Source: Bacteroidales bacterium
GTDB taxonomy: Bacteria > Bacteroidota > Bacteroidia > Bacteroidales > UBA932
DNA: 64,000 bases
NCBI GenBank assembly: GCA_017437125.1
Contig: JAFSBV010000031.1
Coordinates: forward strand, 1-64,000
Direction: 5' to 3'
Part shown: one piece after another, positions 656 to 47,018 of the stretch
Position numbering within the stretch: the stretch's first letter is position 1
How the letters are laid out: every line of letters begins with the position of its first letter
Translations under genes and position numbers: made by a program
Notes under the pieces: model-generated
The model's database searches: none
What the model saw: only the letters and a program-made list of their open reading frames with translations
What the model was told of the DNA's origin: nothing

Positions 656-1993
656 TTATTGGTTAGTATATTTATATAGCGAGATTGCCATTTGATTTTC
701 ATAAGTTGATGACTGAAAGTATCTAAATCGATCTTGCCCGTTAGATGTATTAAACCTAAGATGAGCTCCTCCTGAAGAAATAATGTTTACCGTCTTATTA
801 TCATTAATTGAAATCGTATTTTCATATTGTGTAGTAAGATTCGAAAGCAAGCCGTTCGAATTCGCAGTCCGTCCAATATAATATCCACTATTAGATTTCA
901 CCCAATAGTATGAATCATTTTTCCCTATTTCAAATGTAGATTCCAACAAATCAGAAGTAGCATCGATCGTGTTATCCTCAATGCTTACTTCTACATAATT
1001 ATTAGCAGCATCCAATGTTGTCAGGCTTCCGTTAAAAGCGAACTTTTCGTCCTCATAAACAATCAAATAAGTTCCACTCCAATCGTCAGGAGCAGATTCA
1101 ATTTTGACAAATGAGCCTTCTGCAGTATCCAGTTCCGGCTCAATATCTTTCATATTAATTGTAAAACTTGCCACTACGCCTGATTTAAACTCAGTACCTG
1201 CACGGAAAATAACATCTTTCTTAAACTTTCCTTGATCAGTATTTATAATGAAAGTTACTGTTTGTCCAGCAACATTTACAGGAGCACATGCAAACCAAAC
1301 ATCCTGGTCTCTAGAAGTTGTAATAGTAATACTTTTTTCAGCCTCTTTAGGAGCAATTTCTTTAGTATCAACAAAATAATTCCATTTTCCCGCGAGATCA
1401 ACGGTTTCAGATTCCAACACAATATTCTGAATCTCTATGTTTTGGGGAAGATTAGTGAAAGTTAACTTTCCATATGCTGTAAAATGCTGATATGTCAACT
1501 CTACTTCCGCAGGCATTTTATCTGTAGTTATTGATTCTGCATACAACACCTGAGCTGATTCATCTACAGAATTTTCAAGAGTCGTCTGGTGAGAAGGTAT
1601 TGTTACAGTAAAACGTCCCTGGTCAGCACTCTTGCCATTGAATGCAGAAGCAGGAGAGACAGAATAGAATGTATATTCAGTTGTCTCTGGATCTGTTATA
1701 TCCGCATCAAAAACAGCAGAAGTATAATCATCATAAGGAGTGACAGCTACTGTCTTTTCTGTGCCAGCTACAGTTTCTAGATTAAGTAAGATCTTCACTT
1801 TGTCCCCGTCTGACCAGAGTGTAGGATATTCATCATTCACAATTGAGCCAAAAGTAGTCTTTGTTTCAATTGATTCCGTAAAGAAATGAACATTCTTTGT
1901 CTGCGAAACAGTCTCGGTAACTTCCTTAGCACATCCGGCAAATGTAATCATCGCAACGATGATTAAACATAAACAGTTAATTGATCTTTTCAT
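656..1993 (-). CDS. Fimbrillin-like surface lipoprotein
   Basis: A 445-residue predicted lipoprotein. The N-terminus is a signal peptide ending in a lipobox (ITFAGC), so Cys20 should be lipidated and the mature protein anchored at the cell surface. Residues from about 30 to 285 have the beta-rich layout of fimbrillin-like Bacteroidales proteins (for example TLWSDGDKVKI near the start). A separate C-terminal beta domain of about 150 residues begins around SAPDDWSGTYLIVYEDE. The ATG at 1993 is chosen over an upstream in-frame codon because it gives a clean signal peptide and lies one base after the stop of the small upstream ORF. The DNA looks AT-richer than the housekeeping genes. Ligand and exact role are unknown; it may be a fimbrial or adhesin component. 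Confidence 0.75.
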   Translation of the reverse strand: MKRSINCLCLIIVAMITFAGCAKEVTETVSQTKNVHFFTESIETKTTFGSIVNDEYPTLWSDGDKVKILLNLETVAGTEKTVAVTPYDDYTSAVFDADITDPETTEYTFYSVSPASAFNGKSADQGRFTVTIPSHQTTLENSVDESAQVLYAESITTDKMPAEVELTYQHFTAYGKLTFTNLPQNIEIQNIVLESETVDLAGKWNYFVDTKEIAPKEAEKSITITTSRDQDVWFACAPVNVAGQTVTFIINTDQGKFKKDVIFRAGTEFKSGVVASFTINMKDIEPELDTAEGSFVKIESAPDDWSGTYLIVYEDEKFAFNGSLTTLDAANNYVEVSIEDNTIDATSDLLESTFEIGKNDSYYWVKSNSGYYIGRTANSNGLLSNLTTQYENTISINDNKTVNIISSGGAHLRFNTSNGQDRFRYFQSSTYENQMAISLYKYTNQ

Positions 1994-1994
1994 A

Positions 1995-2147
1995 TTAATA
2001 CTCTCCCCAATCTTCAGTGCCAGCAGGATTAATCTTGCTTCCGCCATTACTGATACAGAACACGCCTTCCGACATTACGTCGAGTACTTCTACGGAAGGA
2101 GAAACATAATTCTCTCTTCCGGATTTGTTGATAGTCTTTAGTGTCAT
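1995..2147 (-). CDS. Small Y-x-S-P peptide upstream of a surface lipoprotein
   Basis: A 50-codon ORF starting at ATG 2147 and ending TAA one base before the ATG of the fimbrillin-like gene, an arrangement that suggests translational coupling. The peptide carries NYVSPSVEVLDV, then EGVFCIS and a C-terminal EDWGEY. The same layout (Y-x-S-P, Glu, E-G-x-x-C-x-S, Trp near the end) is found in the ORFs at 18942-19091 and 46860-47018, both also directly upstream of surface lipoproteins. There is no signal peptide or membrane segment. Function is unknown: it could be a peptide substrate, a chaperone-like partner or a translated leader. Confidence 0.7.
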   Translation of the reverse strand: MTLKTINKSGRENYVSPSVEVLDVMSEGVFCISNGGSKINPAGTEDWGEY

Positions 2148-2471: not shown

Positions 2472-2608
2472 AGTTTTGTTTTTATATAAAATCAAACAAA
2501 TTTTCACATCAAAATCTGCTCCTCAAGCCCCTCTAAGGCCGATTTTGACAAATAGCCGTATATTATTTGAGTAAACGGATAACCTTGAGGAACTTTGCCA
2601 AAAAAAGA

Positions 2609-3691
2609 ATGATGGCTGACGAACAGAAAAATGAAGTTATGAAATCCTTGAAGGGATTTGCAAAGATCTCGCTTGACTTCACATTCAAGCGTATTTTCGG
2701 CAATGAGAGTGACAAAGGAGCGTTGATCGCCTTTCTTAACAGGATAATCGGTGATGCGGACATTGAAGATGTACAGCTTCTCCCTACCGAAAGACTTGGG
2801 CTTACGTCTTCCGACAGGAAAACTGTATTTGACGTTTTCTGCAGAAGTAAGGATGGGACGGAATTTATCGTGGAAATGCAGTGCGCCAAGCAGAAGTACT
2901 TCAAGGACAGAGCATTGTATTACGCAGGATATCCTCTCGTCGAGCAAGGACGACAGGCCTTCGAAAGATATGTGGAGTCGTGCAGTTCCGATAAATCAGC
3001 ACATATCAAGCGCAGCTATGAGAGTTTCAAGTGGGATTTCAACCTGAAACCGATTATTTTCGTTGCCGTGCTGGACTTTTCGATGTCTCATTCGGAAGAA
3101 TGGCCTCGTGATAAGTATTATTCATCATACAGTCTGAAAGAGGACACGACCGATGAAGTGATGAATGATAAATTGAGGTTCATTTTCCTTGAATTGGGAA
3201 GATTTGACAAGAAGGAAAATGAGTTATCCGATATGAATGACAAGTGGATGTATGCCCTGAAGCATATGCATGAATTCAACAGCAGACCTGATGAATTGAT
3301 GGAAAATGAGTTAGATGCGTTGTTTAATCTGGCAAAAATCGCTAATTTTACGCCAAAAGACATAAACACATATTTAGACGAGCTGATTATGGAACGCGAT
3401 TATTGGAACTGCATTGATTACGCAAAGGAAGAAGCCATGAAGGAAGGCAGAGAAAAAGGAATGGAGCAGGGAATGGCAGAAGGTATGAAGCAGGGAATGG
3501 CAGAAGGAATGAAGCAAGGAATGGCAGAAGGAATGAAGCAAGGAATGGCAGAAGGTATGGCAAAAGGTAGAGCTGAAGGTAGAGCTGATGCAATCAGGAG
3601 GATGATTGCCGGAGGACTTGAAGTCGAGCATGTATGCACTCTGATGGAAGTCACTCCAGAAGATATCAAGAGAATCATTTCCGAACAATAA
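2609..3691 (+). CDS. Rpn-family PD-(D/E)XK nuclease (transposase-like)
   Basis: About 360 residues. The core matches the Rpn/PDDEXK_2 family of recombination-promoting nucleases: SLDFTFKRIFG near the start, then VFDVFCR and FIVEMQ, which supply the Asp and Glu-x-Gln of the nuclease site, followed by the family's usual ALYY and PIIFVAVLDF stretches. The C-terminus is a Gly/Met/Gln/Glu helix built from tandem GMKQGMAE repeats, a known habit of the family. ATG 2609 is preferred over the in-frame TTG at 2567. The gene stands alone. The family nicks or cuts DNA and stimulates RecA-independent recombination, with possible roles in phage defence; the role here is inferred only. Confidence 0.85.
   Translation: MMADEQKNEVMKSLKGFAKISLDFTFKRIFGNESDKGALIAFLNRIIGDADIEDVQLLPTERLGLTSSDRKTVFDVFCRSKDGTEFIVEMQCAKQKYFKDRALYYAGYPLVEQGRQAFERYVESCSSDKSAHIKRSYESFKWDFNLKPIIFVAVLDFSMSHSEEWPRDKYYSSYSLKEDTTDEVMNDKLRFIFLELGRFDKKENELSDMNDKWMYALKHMHEFNSRPDELMENELDALFNLAKIANFTPKDINTYLDELIMERDYWNCIDYAKEEAMKEGREKGMEQGMAEGMKQGMAEGMKQGMAEGMKQGMAEGMAKGRAEGRADAIRRMIAGGLEVEHVCTLMEVTPEDIKRIISEQ
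3458..3553 (+). repeat. Four 24-bp tandem repeats inside the rpn gene
   Basis: Four in-frame units (3458, 3482, 3506, 3530) encode G-M-(E/K)-Q-G-M-A-E and are followed by degenerate units (GMAKGRAEGRAD). Near-identity makes the region prone to slippage in steps of eight residues, so copy number probably varies between strains. Confidence 0.9.
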
Positions 3692-15985: not shown

Positions 15986-18934
15986 TTACCTCACGGCATC
16001 CCTCCATGATCCCTTGATGATCACAGGAGGGGCTGTAGGCTCGAAAGATTTCTCCACATAGTTCATACGACGTTTCTGCATTCCAGCATCCTCCGGAGCT
16101 GATTTGCGGTTTATCGCATCGTATTCCACGAACTTCTCATAGTCATATTCCCAGTCCGGACCATATGCCAGCTTGTGGATCCTGTAATATATCGCCTCGC
16201 GGGACGGAGCGTTGAAACCTCCCCTGTTGTAACGCATTATGCTGTCTTCTGTCGGACGATAAGCACCAGTCCAGAATGTACACGCTCCCTCGATCACGCC
16301 CAAGCCCTCTCCAGCATAGCGGCTGTCTGTCAGGAAATGGCTCCATTTAACTTCAGCAGGATCGCTTGTAAAGTCGATATTCCTTCCCCAGCCATACGGC
16401 TCCATACTTCTATAAGCCTCTACTTCCTCATCCGGAATATGACCGTTTTCATAATAGGCATACTCATCAGACAATTTGGCAAATCCGTGTCCTGCAGCCT
16501 CATGTCGTATAGTTCGTCCAAGTTCCTCATCATCCGATCCAACCGGGAGATAAGATACTGACGCACCGTTGCTCCAGTCTCCTTCTGTAGAAACATACAT
16601 ATAGCAGGTTCCTGCATTTGCGACAGAATTCATCATGACTATAACCAGCGTCTGATCCATATGATCCTCACCTATGGCCTTGGCAGCATATGAGAATGCC
16701 GCATCATTATCTCCTCCGACTATTGTCAGTTCGCCAAAATAGCAGTCAAATGCTGTTTCCGAGTATTGTGAATAAACCTCGTTCTTCGACACTGCCGTTA
16801 CCGAATAAACATTGAAGTGGTCACGGAATGACTTGTATGGTTCTTCTTCAAAGATCTTCTCCATAGCTGTCTGCATTATCCTGTCATAGGTACCGTCTGC
16901 AATCAGACGGTCAGAGAAAGCATCACCCATCAGCACTATATCTATACCATTCCCTTTTGTCGCAACCTGCAGCTGCTTGACTTCACCATCCCTCGAGTAA
17001 TCAGTAGATTCATACAGTTTTGGTGTATCTGACGGATCTGTCGGATCAGGCTCTCCCAACTTCTCCAGAAGGAACTCATCAAGATCATTATAATCATCTG
17101 TACAATAATTAAATATGATATAACCCTCCTTGTCAACTACGCACACTGCCGGAGACTCCCAGTACCGGCCATTATAGAAATCTTCAGACAGCATGAGATA
17201 TGGCCATTCTGTATTATGCATTTCAGCATATGCCCTATGAGACTCTATTGTTCCATCAAAAGAGTAAGCGATGACTGCCAGTCCCTTATTCCTGTAGCCT
17301 TTATATAATTCAACAAGAACAGGGGTAAAATCATGAGCCCAATGACACCAATCGTTATAATGATACAATATCGTATATTCATTTTTCGAGTATATGGAGT
17401 CGTCTATCATCTCACCGTCTATTGTCTTTTCAGTGAATCTCGGTGCAGGAATAATCAGTCCCTCACTGGAAAAGCCCTCCCCTCGCTGTTCCAGCACATC
17501 ATGCCAGCTCGTCGGCCATGATTCCATTTCCATTATACGCATGGGAACGGTTCCTGTAAAGAAATTACTGAAGATGATGAAATTTTCCAGACTGGTCATT
17601 CCGCTGACAGATTCAGGAATGCTTCCGGTAAGATTGTTACCTGGTATCACGAATTCCTTAAGCATTGTCAGGTTACCAATCGAAGAAGGCAATTCACCAG
17701 TAAGTGCATTCCCGTCCAGATTTAAATATTCCAGATTTACCATATCTCCGATAGATTCAGGAATATTTCCGGTAAGGTTATTATTTATAGCACTGAAATG
17801 AGTAAGGTTTATCATGTTGCCGATTGAATTCGGCAATTCGCCTTCGAGCGAGTTGAAATCCAGAATTAAAGACTGCAGATGTTTCAAGTTACCTATTGTC
17901 TCTGGGATAGTTCCGGTAAGATTATTTTCATTCAGATATATCCACGAGACCGTACCTGCATCATCAGTAATCACTCCATTCCATTCGCCTAACGGCTTAT
18001 CCGAACACCAACCAGCATTATTATGCCAGTTATCTCCATCTGTCGCATTATATAAATCAATCAACGCCTCACGCTCCAAGGCCATCTGTTCATCGGAATC
18101 CTTCCACCAGGAATCAGACATCGTACCTAAATCAGTTATGGTTCCGCTTTCGATAACGACTTTCTGAGCGATATCTCTGACAGCTACCTTTCCGTCCTGC
18201 GACTTGAAAGAAAATTTCAAGCCGTTGGAATATGTTCCGGGATACAACGCAATATAGTAGTCTCCAGCCATCTTTGCTGACTCGAAATTCAAGTAAAGGT
18301 AAGGGAAAGGGTACACATCCGGGGCAGGTTCGTTCAAGACAAGAACAGGCCTGTCACTCGAAAAATCTACAACCGCAGACCAGTCACTCATGGCCTCTGC
18401 ACCTTTTGCCCATACTTCCACTTGTGACAGTTTCCTGGACTCATCAGGCAGAGTGAACTTGATGTAACCTAAAAGATTGCAGAAATGAAGAGCAGAATCA
18501 GAATCGGAACAATCTGCAGCGAAAAGGGAAACCGGCAGAGTATTCTTGATTGCTGTCTGAGATGGAAGAACAAAAATATAATCCTTTCCATTCCATTCAA
18601 TATGCAGATTCGAACTTACAGCATGATATACTTCTGCCGGCATAGTCTTGCCGACAAATTCCGAACAAGATGCAGGTTCTTTCAACGTAGAAACAAACTC
18701 ATCTCCATTTATCCGGATGCGGTCACCAGGCTTCCACCAGAGTTCCTCGCCATCAACCAATATTGTCTTGGTCAGATTATCCAATGTCGCCGAAAAGCTC
18801 ATACTGACCTTTTCCCCGACAGGGTCTATAGGGCCTGTCGGTTTCTGAGGAGGTTCCGGTGATTCTTCCCCGACACATGCCGCTGACATCATGGCTGCCA
18901 TGATGACCAGTATATTTCCGAATATTCTTCTCAT
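15986..18934 (-). CDS. Multidomain surface lipoprotein: LRR, thioredoxin-like and M64 metallopeptidase
   Basis: 982 residues. A lipobox (SAAC, Cys20) is followed by a fimbrillin-like beta domain (about 40-275). Leucine-rich repeats follow (about 300-475; units such as NNLTGTIPETIGNL). Next comes a thioredoxin/AhpC-like domain (about 495-627). Its active-site turn reads NDWCHWAH, so the second Cys of CxxC is missing. Last is a peptidase M64 domain (about 660-925) with HEAAGHGFAKLSDEY, residues 811-825, the zinc-binding HExxH plus downstream ligands. M64 includes secreted IgA-cleaving proteases; the substrate here is unknown. A Y-x-S-P small ORF ends 7 bp upstream. Converges with the HD gene. 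Confidence 0.85.
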   Translation of the reverse strand: MRRIFGNILVIMAAMMSAACVGEESPEPPQKPTGPIDPVGEKVSMSFSATLDNLTKTILVDGEELWWKPGDRIRINGDEFVSTLKEPASCSEFVGKTMPAEVYHAVSSNLHIEWNGKDYIFVLPSQTAIKNTLPVSLFAADCSDSDSALHFCNLLGYIKFTLPDESRKLSQVEVWAKGAEAMSDWSAVVDFSSDRPVLVLNEPAPDVYPFPYLYLNFESAKMAGDYYIALYPGTYSNGLKFSFKSQDGKVAVRDIAQKVVIESGTITDLGTMSDSWWKDSDEQMALEREALIDLYNATDGDNWHNNAGWCSDKPLGEWNGVITDDAGTVSWIYLNENNLTGTIPETIGNLKHLQSLILDFNSLEGELPNSIGNMINLTHFSAINNNLTGNIPESIGDMVNLEYLNLDGNALTGELPSSIGNLTMLKEFVIPGNNLTGSIPESVSGMTSLENFIIFSNFFTGTVPMRIMEMESWPTSWHDVLEQRGEGFSSEGLIIPAPRFTEKTIDGEMIDDSIYSKNEYTILYHYNDWCHWAHDFTPVLVELYKGYRNKGLAVIAYSFDGTIESHRAYAEMHNTEWPYLMLSEDFYNGRYWESPAVCVVDKEGYIIFNYCTDDYNDLDEFLLEKLGEPDPTDPSDTPKLYESTDYSRDGEVKQLQVATKGNGIDIVLMGDAFSDRLIADGTYDRIMQTAMEKIFEEEPYKSFRDHFNVYSVTAVSKNEVYSQYSETAFDCYFGELTIVGGDNDAAFSYAAKAIGEDHMDQTLVIVMMNSVANAGTCYMYVSTEGDWSNGASVSYLPVGSDDEELGRTIRHEAAGHGFAKLSDEYAYYENGHIPDEEVEAYRSMEPYGWGRNIDFTSDPAEVKWSHFLTDSRYAGEGLGVIEGACTFWTGAYRPTEDSIMRYNRGGFNAPSREAIYYRIHKLAYGPDWEYDYEKFVEYDAINRKSAPEDAGMQKRRMNYVEKSFEPTAPPVIIKGSWRDAVR

Positions 18935-18941
18935 AGCATCA

Positions 18942-19091
18942 TCAGTCTAAAAGGTCAGCCCAATCATCATCCTCGGTAAGAGGATCATGCACTCCACTTG
19001 CACAAAGCAGCCCTTCGCTGCATATGACATATTCCATGACCGCCGGACTTTCATAAATGTCCTGAGGCCGGGCATTGACAGTGTTTTTCAT
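18942..19091 (-). CDS. Small Y-x-S-P peptide upstream of the M64 lipoprotein
   Basis: 49 codons from ATG 19091 to TGA 18942, 7 bp before the M64 lipoprotein ATG. Key residues are IYESPAVMEYV, then EGLLCAS and EDDDWADLLD. It aligns without gaps over the first 33 residues with the peptide at 1995-2147 (Y-x-S-P, Glu20, E-G-x-x-C-x-S) and shares YESP-x-V/M-M-E with the peptide at 46860-47018. No signal peptide. Function unknown; co-translation with the lipoprotein is likely. Confidence 0.7.
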   Translation of the reverse strand: MKNTVNARPQDIYESPAVMEYVICSEGLLCASGVHDPLTEDDDWADLLD

Positions 19092-45071: not shown

Positions 45072-46841
45072 TCACTGACAAGCCGGAGTATCTCCATATT
45101 CGAGAGAGAAATCGTCTATATATAATGTACTACCTTTGCCTCCATGCTGGTAATCGCCATACTTACTTGAAGTGAATACTATAAGCAAATGAGTAGGCTT
45201 TTTATTCAAATCTCTGTACACCAAAGGAATATTCACCTCTTTCCATTGTCCGTCGGTGCTTACGCTCTGCTCGGCAGGAAGAGCGCCATACGCTATGACA
45301 CGAGGATCGGTTTCCAAATCGGGAAAAGTACTCATATCCGTATTGTCAACAGTTAAAGCCTCAGACAGGAGAGCGCAAAATATAGCACAGACATCAGGCT
45401 CACCTTTGCCAGGTGCATCTGCCGGTGCATCAGAACTGAAGCCTTGAGTTCCCGCAATAACAGCTGGAGCATACTGCATCCAACCTTTTAGTGCAGTAGG
45501 ACGCGAAGTAAAGGGTGTACCCCAATTAACACTATCTCCATCTGTCCCAATCAGGCATTCAAACGAACCGGTGTAAAGACTTGCTGCAGAAAACTTGATA
45601 ACGATATACTTTGACTCCAGCCTGGCTGCCATATACCCTCCGTGTACAATATCTGTGATTCCAGTCGTATTAGACCCTCCAAATGATGCTGATGATTTGT
45701 TTTTTGTGTCCCAAAAATTAGTGCCTTGCTCATTTGGATATTCGGTCTTACCATCCACCCACCAATCCTCAAATCCACCATTGTATAGAGATATCTGTTC
45801 CTCAGTAGTAAAGGCAACAGGTTCAGATATGCTTTCAATGTCACCATCTTCATACCGCAGGCGATATTCATAATCAGTATCTGGCGTCAGTCCTTTCAAA
45901 GTTGCCTTTATATCATTTGAAACGCTTACATTCAACGACTGGGAACTCATCTCGGTCCAGACATCATCTCACTTTTTCTTCCACTGGATCGTCAATCCTG
46001 ATTCTTTGACAGCACCTGTCTTGGATGCTATAGATGCGTCAAGTATTGCAAAATTACTCCAGGCATTAGCAGAAGCCGAAAAAGTATGGTACGGTGGTGC
46101 TGCATCCAACGCATAACTCTTGTTGTGTTCTGTGCCGTTGGGGGTCTTCTCGGCTGTGAAGGTATAGTCTTTAACAGTCACCTCGCCCAGTTTCACACTC
46201 AAGGTAGCGCCCACTGAGAATGTACCATACAGATAGGCATTACCCTTTGCATCCGGAGTGACTGTATAACTTGTGGATACTGATAATTCCTCCGGACCGG
46301 CGGGAATAAACCCAGTCACATCAACGGTCAGAGCCTTATCCGGTTCTCCCACAATGCGCAGACGACTATAGTCGCGGGTTACACCATCGAAGGTAATATT
46401 TACAGTAAGACCGTCAATAACAGTTTCTGCAGGAATGTATTCTGCCATACCATACAGTCTGCCGTCGACAAGCCCGATGCTTCCGTCAGACTTTATCTCG
46501 CAGTCGGGTGCATACAGGACAAGGATTCCTGCAATATCTGAACTGGCAAGGACTTTATCATGAGTCCACTCACCCGACATATATTCAAGTGTATATCCTT
46601 GTTTCTTACTACTTTCGGAAGTAATGGACAACAATAATCTGTCACCGTCTTCCCAAGCTGTCTTGCCGGCATCTGGCGTACCGACAGCACGGGTACCGGC
46701 CCCAAACTGAGGAAAACCACCTATCACGAACTGCAAATCACCCGGACCGGAAGGCTGCATCACCTCTTCCAGTTCATTGCCGCACGAAACCGTAACTGCC
46801 ATTGCGGCAAGCATCATCATAAATTGAATTATCTTTCGCAT
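45072..46841 (-). pseudogene. PCMD-type surface lipoprotein interrupted by one in-frame TGA
   Basis: Two ORFs in the same frame, 46841-45969 and 45968-45072, are separated by a single TGA and together make 589 codons. The first part has a lipobox (AVTVSC) and a beta-rich DUF4493-like domain, ending ESGLTIQWKKK. The second opens DDVWTEMSSQ, a fibronectin-III-like strand set with LKGLTPDTDYEYRL, then the PCMD (putative carbohydrate metabolism) domain, NGGFEDWWVDGKTEYPN to YIDDFSLEYG. Full-length relatives usually carry K-x-G-D at the join, so a GGA to TGA change would explain the break. It may be a recent pseudogene, a readthrough site or a sequencing error. Confidence 0.75.
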
Positions 46842-46859: not shown

Positions 46860-47018
46860 CTAAAGTTCCTCCTCATCGCTCCATCCATTCCCAAATGGAT
46901 TGCCGGAGCCATTTAAATCAAATACGCTTCCCTGAAGAATAATCTGCTCGACCTTCATCTCCATAATCTCCATCACAGGAGATTCATAGCCTTTGTATGC
47001 CTTACCGTTATTTTCCAT
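46860..47018 (-). CDS. Small Y-x-S-P peptide upstream of the PCMD lipoprotein
   Basis: 52 codons from ATG 47018 to TAG 46860; a GGAGG ribosome site lies between its stop and the lipoprotein ATG 18 bp on. Key residues: GYESPVMEIMEMKVEQIILQ, then a Gly/Asn-rich stretch and NGWSDEEEL. It keeps Y-x-S-P, the following Glu residues, a Ser and the late Trp with acidic tail of the peptides at 1995-2147 and 18942-19091, but lacks their Cys. A TATATTTG box at 47047-47054 (minus) is a likely -7 element. Function unknown. Confidence 0.65.
   Translation of the reverse strand: MENNGKAYKGYESPVMEIMEMKVEQIILQGSVFDLNGSGNPFGNGWSDEEEL

Follow-up and report, generated by a model that had tools for sequence, protein, structure and literature searches.

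Linear polyphosphorylated peptides (LPPs; LppA/K/B/S/D/N) have been described by Popov et al. (2026, Nat Commun, PMC13381572), and the passages of that paper considered here give their enzyme set as SpI, a discrete RRE, an HprK-like kinase, an NTP transferase and an MsbA-like transporter. The precursors follow the pattern YxxPxVLxHQxIxFETxxS and are phosphorylated on that Ser (Y+18), to which the kinase LppK adds several phosphates. The RRE LppB binds YxxP through N33/D70, which hold the Pro and the Tyr, and LppS, assisted by LppB, cuts so that the Ser becomes the third core residue. According to the same passages, LPPs occur in Bacillota only, and the authors leave their role open. In passages of two papers (PMC12710340; PMC13381572), YxxP is also the leader motif read by lasso-peptide RREs, and paeninodin-type phosphorylated lasso peptides resemble the system reported here in their HprK-like kinase, NTP transferase, discrete RRE and [Y/W]xxP-kind leader (PMC13381572, in part). 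RiPP precursors are likewise found in the same order, Bacteroidales, in the GG-motif/PCAT clusters of a mining study (PMC10352776), which differ in their radical SAM or YcaO enzymes, peptidase-containing transporters and GG leaders; in the passages of that study a YxxP/kinase/SpI system was not found. No account of a Bacteroidales LPP-type system, or of the peptides themselves, was found in the open-licence literature. The YxSP peptides reported here are read, with a probability of roughly 85%, as precursors of a Bacteroidales version of the LPP-type RiPP system, which depends on an RRE and whose enzymes would be supplied in trans. What is new here is the phylum, the altered leader, the many dispersed precursors and the tie to surface proteins.

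The window, which is the whole stretch of 64,000 nucleotides of Bacteroidales DNA that was analysed, had been predicted to contain three short ORFs, each directly ahead of a surface lipoprotein gene. The coordinates of these ORFs stood, but they lie on the minus strand, translation of which yields the peptides, whereas plus-strand translation does not. Two further claims were borne out, namely that the ORFs end 1, 7 and 18 nt ahead of the lipoprotein start codon and that they share a Y-x-S-P motif, at residues 14-17, 13-16 and 11-14 in peptides 1, 2 and 3. The features are as follows.

1995..2147, minus strand: putative precursor peptide 1 (translation, profile member), 50 aa; leader Y14-V-S-P17, E27; Ser33 at Y+19; acidic core with a Trp near the end.
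656..1993, minus strand: lipoprotein with a fimbrillin-like head (head alignment and profile), 1 nt after peptide 1.
18942..19091, minus strand: putative precursor peptide 2 (translation, profile member), 49 aa; leader Y13-E-S-P16, E26; Ser32 at Y+19.
15986..18934, minus strand: 982-aa lipoprotein, starting 7 nt after peptide 2; a head of the same type precedes LRR, AhpC/thioredoxin-like and M64 peptidase domains.
46860..47018, minus strand: putative precursor peptide 3 (translation, profile member), 52 aa, EQ-type; leader Y11-E-S-P14, E24; Ser31 at Y+20.
45969..46841, minus strand: head-type lipoprotein of 290 aa, separated from peptide 3 by 18 nt; the PCMD ORF 45072-45950 comes next.

The lipoproteins had been thought to differ from one another. 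This is true of their C-terminal parts, but the N-terminal domain type is common to all three, which align and match the head profile in 3/3 cases, being themselves rows of the profile that recovers them. After the lipobox Cys, this head runs C..E ... TKT/TRx ... W..GD. A Pfam scan of the lipoprotein at 656..1993 returned nothing above cut-off. AlphaFold models of a paired lipoprotein (pLDDT 36.9) and of the peptide (59.7) were both of insufficient quality for searching by fold. The peptides gave nothing relevant against Pfam and NCBIfam, and no relative was found in the viral contigs searched. At 45072-46841 (minus strand), the 290-aa head ORF is followed, after an 18-nt gap, by a 292-aa PCMD (PF13201) ORF. 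Since many other heads run into a long tail within a single protein, this region may be a split gene or contain a sequencing frameshift. An ORF with EGMKQGMAEG-type repeats near its C-terminus was also seen in the window (2567-3691, plus strand), and ORFs with GRAEGR-type repeats occur upstream of some peptides in two other genomes (G077 and G307).

A profile built from the three peptides found further places in the window's genome, 7 with E ≤ 0.01 and 9 when the limit was relaxed to E ≤ 10. Because their own profile finds further places in the same genome, the three ORFs are not a chance trio. A 12-member profile found 14 places in all in this genome (weakest 2.2e-5), and 13 of these 14 copies stand directly ahead of a lipoprotein gene. 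The 14th (G000:C53:132195-132290; L005, L024) encodes only 28 aa, with the full leader and the Ser kept, the core absent and a terminator-like hairpin after it. Head-type domains numbered 16 by profile, 13 of them with a peptide; two of the three peptide-less heads start directly behind another same-strand frame (gaps 11 and -4), and the third is on contig C3, on which a family peptide was not observed. Two peptide-less head-type lipoproteins that begin right behind a same-strand frame are those at G000:C29:43946 and 47200 (L165, L169), and the frame ahead of L169 ends like the window's M64-type lipoprotein.

With their TKT...W..GD motifs, the heads of the paired lipoproteins resemble fimbrillin/Mfa_like_1 (PF13149) lipoproteins, and among the 13 heads that are linked to a peptide in the window's genome, one (L007, on G000:C29) passed the PF13149 cut-off (30.8 vs 27 bits). 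The other 12, however, were absent from the PF13149 matches, and no family peptide was found upstream of seven PF13149 genes, one of them sub-threshold. Upstream of two of these seven, a chance Y..P was seen in a frame taken as the end of the preceding gene. A profile search of PDB sequences with the heads returned no fimbrillin. Apart from this one member, the heads resemble fimbrillins weakly.

The set assembled across Bacteroidales comprised 108 members (107 distinct). Its counts leave out L043, which has two stops, and 23 unexamined, mostly lowest-scoring hits of the genus search; L080, L082 and L084 were likewise left out as repeats of loci already in the set, and 28 further members lie outside the 108. 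Of the 24 other genomes of the genus, 17 contained related peptides (E ≤ 0.1). Among 295 sampled Bacteroidales genomes, broader profiles gave 20 and 28 positives at E ≤ 0.01 (union 29). Copy numbers reach 14 in the window's genome (G000) and 17 in G077. Seven named loci come from six MAGs labelled Bacteroidales bacterium, and at least five of these MAGs are from ruminant guts.

The leader consensus of the family was Y-x-[SA]-P-x-x-E-V-x-E-V-x-x-E, then [GQ]. In an ungapped count anchored on Y..P, with YxxP as the anchor in all 108 members, Glu occurred at Y+13 in 92/108 members and Ser at Y+19 or Y+20 in 104/108, the window peptides included; one of the four Ser misses, L011, was anchored on the wrong Tyr. 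An aromatic residue lies inside the last ten residues of 105/108 members. We take these leaders to resemble those of fusilassin and paeninodin. With LPP precursors the peptides share a YxxP leader, a variable C-terminus and a conserved Ser 18-20 residues past the Tyr, but the leader here reads E-V-x-E-V-x-x-E-[GQ] instead of V-L-x-H-Q-x-I-x-F-E-T, HQ and FET are absent in the 108 members, the Ser is shifted by 1-2 positions and the core is shorter. A sub-group with an ISLVMMS..PP.DP-like pattern (L220, L223-L227, L242, L243 and L250), often with a C-terminal NPF/SPF-like motif, was also observed; in other Bacteroidales families, several of its members follow a T9SS cargo gene, and its core is strongly unlike that of the window peptides.

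Coding constraint, which had been named as a check on the original prediction, was found, with pN/pS well below 1 in the listed pairs. The ratio was 0.16-0.53 in seven non-identical pairs at ≥ 80% amino acid identity and 0.16-0.68 in all 21 non-identical pairs at ≥ 60%, in pairs that are non-independent and were selected by amino acid identity, which favours low pN. The pair L083 and L085 illustrates this, with 8 non-synonymous against 13 synonymous changes in 47 codons. The conserved Tyr, Pro, Glu and Ser are each written with several synonymous codons, and entropy was highest at the third codon position (1.81 bits, against 1.45 at the first and 1.18 at the second). The family is protein-coding and under strong purifying selection; with synonymous changes far exceeding non-synonymous ones, the peptide product therefore matters.

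Linkage to lipoproteins, likewise proposed as a check, held well beyond the three window loci. Two members (L116 and L135) lie too close to a contig end for the neighbour test, and in 92 of the remaining 106 a lipoprotein gene starts within 47 nt after the peptide, a count in which L027, L061 and L102 were scored as without a lipoprotein by the script and look lipoprotein-like by eye. The gap ranged from -23 to 47 nt (median 15.5; 14/92 negative), and a simple fimbrillin-like head motif was present in 67 of the 92 following lipoproteins. The box TAnnTTTG, a Bacteroides-type promoter motif, was found less than 100 nt upstream of the peptide in 29/105 cases (5.5 expected from shuffling), in the next three 100-nt windows upstream in 10, 3 and 4 of 104, and between the peptide start and the lipoprotein start in 1/92. 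Since it sits upstream of the peptide and rarely between the two starts, peptide and lipoprotein are probably co-transcribed. A same-strand long frame ends no more than 60 nt ahead of the peptide in 23/102 cases. Some members are located downstream of T9SS-cargo genes or alone, some of them ahead of a terminator-like hairpin. Among 13 upstream secreted-protein genes whose last 110-300 residues were scanned, the T9SS type A sorting domain was above cut-off in six, below it in three and not found in four.

The distribution of the HprK-like kinase followed that of the peptides. Among the 295 Bacteroidales genomes, a kinase at E ≤ 1e-20 was found in 27/29 peptide-positive and 15/266 peptide-negative genomes (p = 2.7e-25, uncorrected for phylogeny), with a threshold chosen after the list was seen (42/295 genomes positive). 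At E ≤ 1e-6 the corresponding numbers were 27/29 and 50/266 (p = 9e-16), and after removal of the eight sampled genomes represented among the profile rows they were 19/21 and 15/266 (p = 1.6e-18), both again uncorrected for phylogeny. Peptide-positive genomes without a kinase were G174 and G278. These two and the 15 peptide-negative genomes with a kinase count against the LPP reading, as does the commonness of RREs in genomes without the peptide. Within the 25 genomes of the window's genus, co-occurrence was weak (both present in 15, peptide only in three, kinase only in four, neither in three), a result put down to the incompleteness of many of these MAGs and to the narrow peptide profile applied to them. 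Leaders were more alike within a genome than between genomes: for 32 peptides from eight genomes, mostly outside the window's genus, the leader distance was 0.49 within vs 0.73 between genomes (p = 0.0005), even where the lipoproteins were unrelated; inside the window's genus this effect was absent (p = 0.24). Such likeness is as expected for one shared machinery, and thus points to a single partner shared by the peptides of each lineage.

PqqD-like RREs (PF05402) were above cut-off in 14/14 chosen peptide-positive and 10/17 chosen peptide-negative genomes (p = 0.009). Of 20 RRE neighbourhoods fetched, 15 were read, and 12 of the 15 contained an HprK-like kinase within about 3 kb; the three without a kinase were one G012 locus, G107 and the window's genome. 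Kinase-bearing RRE loci usually also had a small SpI/S24-like peptidase, a nucleotidyltransferase and an ABC exporter. Four genomes carry a family peptide within this cassette, with gene orders as follows.

G230, all on one strand: peptide, head-type lipoprotein, kinase, SpI, RRE, NTP_transf_5, ABC exporter.
G110: T9SS cargo, RRE, peptide, kinase, SpI, ABC exporter.
G237: RRE, peptide, kinase, SpI, ABC exporter.
G043: peptide, kinase, SpI, RRE, NTP_transf_5, ABC exporter.

The peptide was also located about 5, 4 and 9 kb from a kinase in G131 (where it was spotted by eye), G250 and G186, respectively. In the G230 operon the lipoprotein is head-type by motif only and gave no Pfam hit. The RREs and ABC exporters of G110, G237 and G230 and the NTP_transf_5 protein of G230 were above the Pfam cut-off, an RRE (PF05402) was also found by Pfam in the G043 operon, and the kinases of G110, G237 and G230 were identified by profile. 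NTP_transf_5 (PF14907) matched at 3.9e-33 in the G043 and 6.2e-40 in the G230 operon and was not seen in those of G110 and G237. Bacteroides ihuae, a named control genome, also gave PqqD and NTP_transf_5 matches. For SpI, the best NCBIfam match of 5/5 proteins (L271, L321, L322, L323 and L324) was TIGR02228, archaeal-type signal peptidase I, with scores of 22.5-49.6 bits that all fall short of the curated cut-off (51.85); L324 also passed PF00717 (Peptidase_S24), and L271 had no Pfam hit. The kinase P-loop G.SG.GKST was kept in 10/10 aligned rows, and the match to HprK-related kinase A (NCBIfam) was weak in the three kinases tested (3/3; 19-21.6 bits, cut-off 200). The SpI and kinase labels are thus putative assignments that combine sub-cut-off matches with operon context. 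The top NCBIfam match of the G043 exporter was TIGR02203 (MsbA; 3e-77, below the equivalog cut-off), and MsbA models ranked second or third, below their equivalog cut-offs, for the exporters of G024 and the window's genome. Contig C8 of the latter carries the kinase, the SpI-like gene (on the opposite strand) and the ABC exporter side by side, the RRE lies on C55, and NTP_transf_5 is on C16 and C55 (three matches, one with an internal stop); none of these three contigs carries any of the 14 peptides. By eye, no radical-SAM or C39/GG-type RiPP cluster was noticed beside the peptide-lipoprotein pairs in the ORF lists shown for 17 neighbourhoods.

The enzyme set of archaeal-type SpI, discrete RRE, HprK-like kinase, NTP transferase and MsbA-like exporter is the one described for LPPs. 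In addition, an Asn (15/16 rows) and an Asp (16/16 rows) are kept in the RREs at a spacing close to that of LppB N33/D70, to which they probably correspond; the residues that hold YxxP thus appear conserved. The peptides are read as LPP-type and served in trans because of the Ser at Y+19/+20, the RRE Asn/Asp at LppB-like spacing and the same enzyme set. Points against this reading are the missing HQ and FET parts of the leader, the spread of the enzymes of the window's genome over three contigs that carry none of its 14 peptides, the sub-cut-off SpI and kinase matches, the weak co-occurrence and absent leader effect within the genus, the core-less copy on C53 and the G110 and G237 operons in which no NTP_transf_5 gene was seen.

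Three other explanations were weighed against this reading. If the peptide were a regulatory leader or a translational-coupling ORF, translation of the short ORF would control the following lipoprotein gene, as the short gaps and the position of the promoter box, with its probable co-transcription, would allow. The conservation lies, however, in amino acids and not in RNA, some members stand alone, behind T9SS-cargo genes or before a terminator-like hairpin, and others lie within RRE/kinase/exporter operons, so that we regard this explanation as extremely unlikely. A role as a small chaperone, export aid or assembly partner dedicated to the neighbouring lipoprotein would fit the position of 92/106 members directly ahead of a lipoprotein gene and the peptide carried by 13/16 head-type lipoproteins of the window's genome, yet it too seems highly improbable. 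Over 91 peptide-lipoprotein pairs, the Mantel correlation between peptide and head distances was 0.31, yet tails gave 0.29; since tails correlate nearly as well, this signal mostly reflects shared ancestry, and co-evolution of peptide and lipoprotein was rejected, the head correlation being no stronger than that of the tail. Moreover, near-identical peptides precede unrelated lipoproteins (L134/L138, L098/L113 and L113/L121; core distance 0.06-0.11, head distance 0.84-0.99), the AlphaFold prediction for the peptide is of low confidence (pLDDT 59.7), and the RRE/kinase linkage would be left unexplained. A cis-acting leader or a dedicated chaperone is therefore unlikely, given these near-identical peptides and the members found behind type IX cargo or alone. 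Of the four functions originally proposed, this disfavours the regulatory leader and the co-translated partner or export aid, and the processed peptide is retained, as an RRE-dependent RiPP precursor.

There is also little likelihood that the product is an RRE-dependent RiPP of the lasso or another cyclised class instead of a linear phosphopeptide. The YxxP motif is that of lasso leaders, and the RREs match the NCBIfam lasso PqqD models weakly (best 3.7e-6, below cut-off). Against this, Pfam found no asparagine-synthetase-like cyclase or B2-type protease among 25 ORFs in the four operon neighbourhoods, and the peptidase present is SpI-like. The lack of a cyclase and B2 protease among these ORFs also separates the system from paeninodin-type peptides, as do a leader with Tyr, not Trp, and RREs with the Asn/Asp described for Tyr-binding RREs. 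A GG-leader reading of the E-G-x-x-C-x-S motif did not fit by eye and was rejected.

For the LPP-type reading, the following route is proposed by analogy. The conserved first half of the peptide would serve as the leader, bound through YxxP by the small PqqD-like RRE, and the near-invariant Ser at Y+19/+20 would be the phosphorylation site of the HprK-like kinase. The archaeal-type signal peptidase would then remove the leader just ahead of that Ser, with a cut predicted between Y+16 and Y+18 as in LPPs. The short acidic core left by this cut, ending near an aromatic residue, may be further modified by the NTP_transf_5 protein and would be sent out by the MsbA-like ABC exporter. Unlike LPPs of Bacillota, the Bacteroidales form would have up to 14 (G000) or 17 (G077) scattered precursors, served mostly in trans; each as a rule shares an operon with the gene of a surface lipoprotein, or with that of a T9SS cargo in other families. 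The coupling of peptide production to an adhesin-like surface protein suggests that the product acts at the cell surface. A further idea, tentative and rather doubtful at present, is a genome-wide scheme that pairs every surface adhesin with its own exported phosphopeptide. A single kinase/RRE/SpI/exporter machine would then mature at least a dozen different short acidic phosphopeptides; production of each would keep pace with that of one fimbrillin-headed lipoprotein or T9SS cargo, on which the peptide would act or which it would serve as label or ligand.

If the main reading is true, the unnamed short ORFs that form a large class in Bacteroidales of gut and rumen would gain a concrete biochemical role open to testing. 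The range of a RiPP class described in 2026 as limited to Bacillota would also extend to a second phylum, with many scattered precursors per enzyme set. Mining for a precursor beside its enzymes would miss such peptides, as 0/14 peptides of the window's genome share a contig with the enzymes found. The link from peptide to adhesin-like protein would provide a handle on the purpose of the phosphopeptides, which passages of the LPP paper (PMC13381572) leave open.
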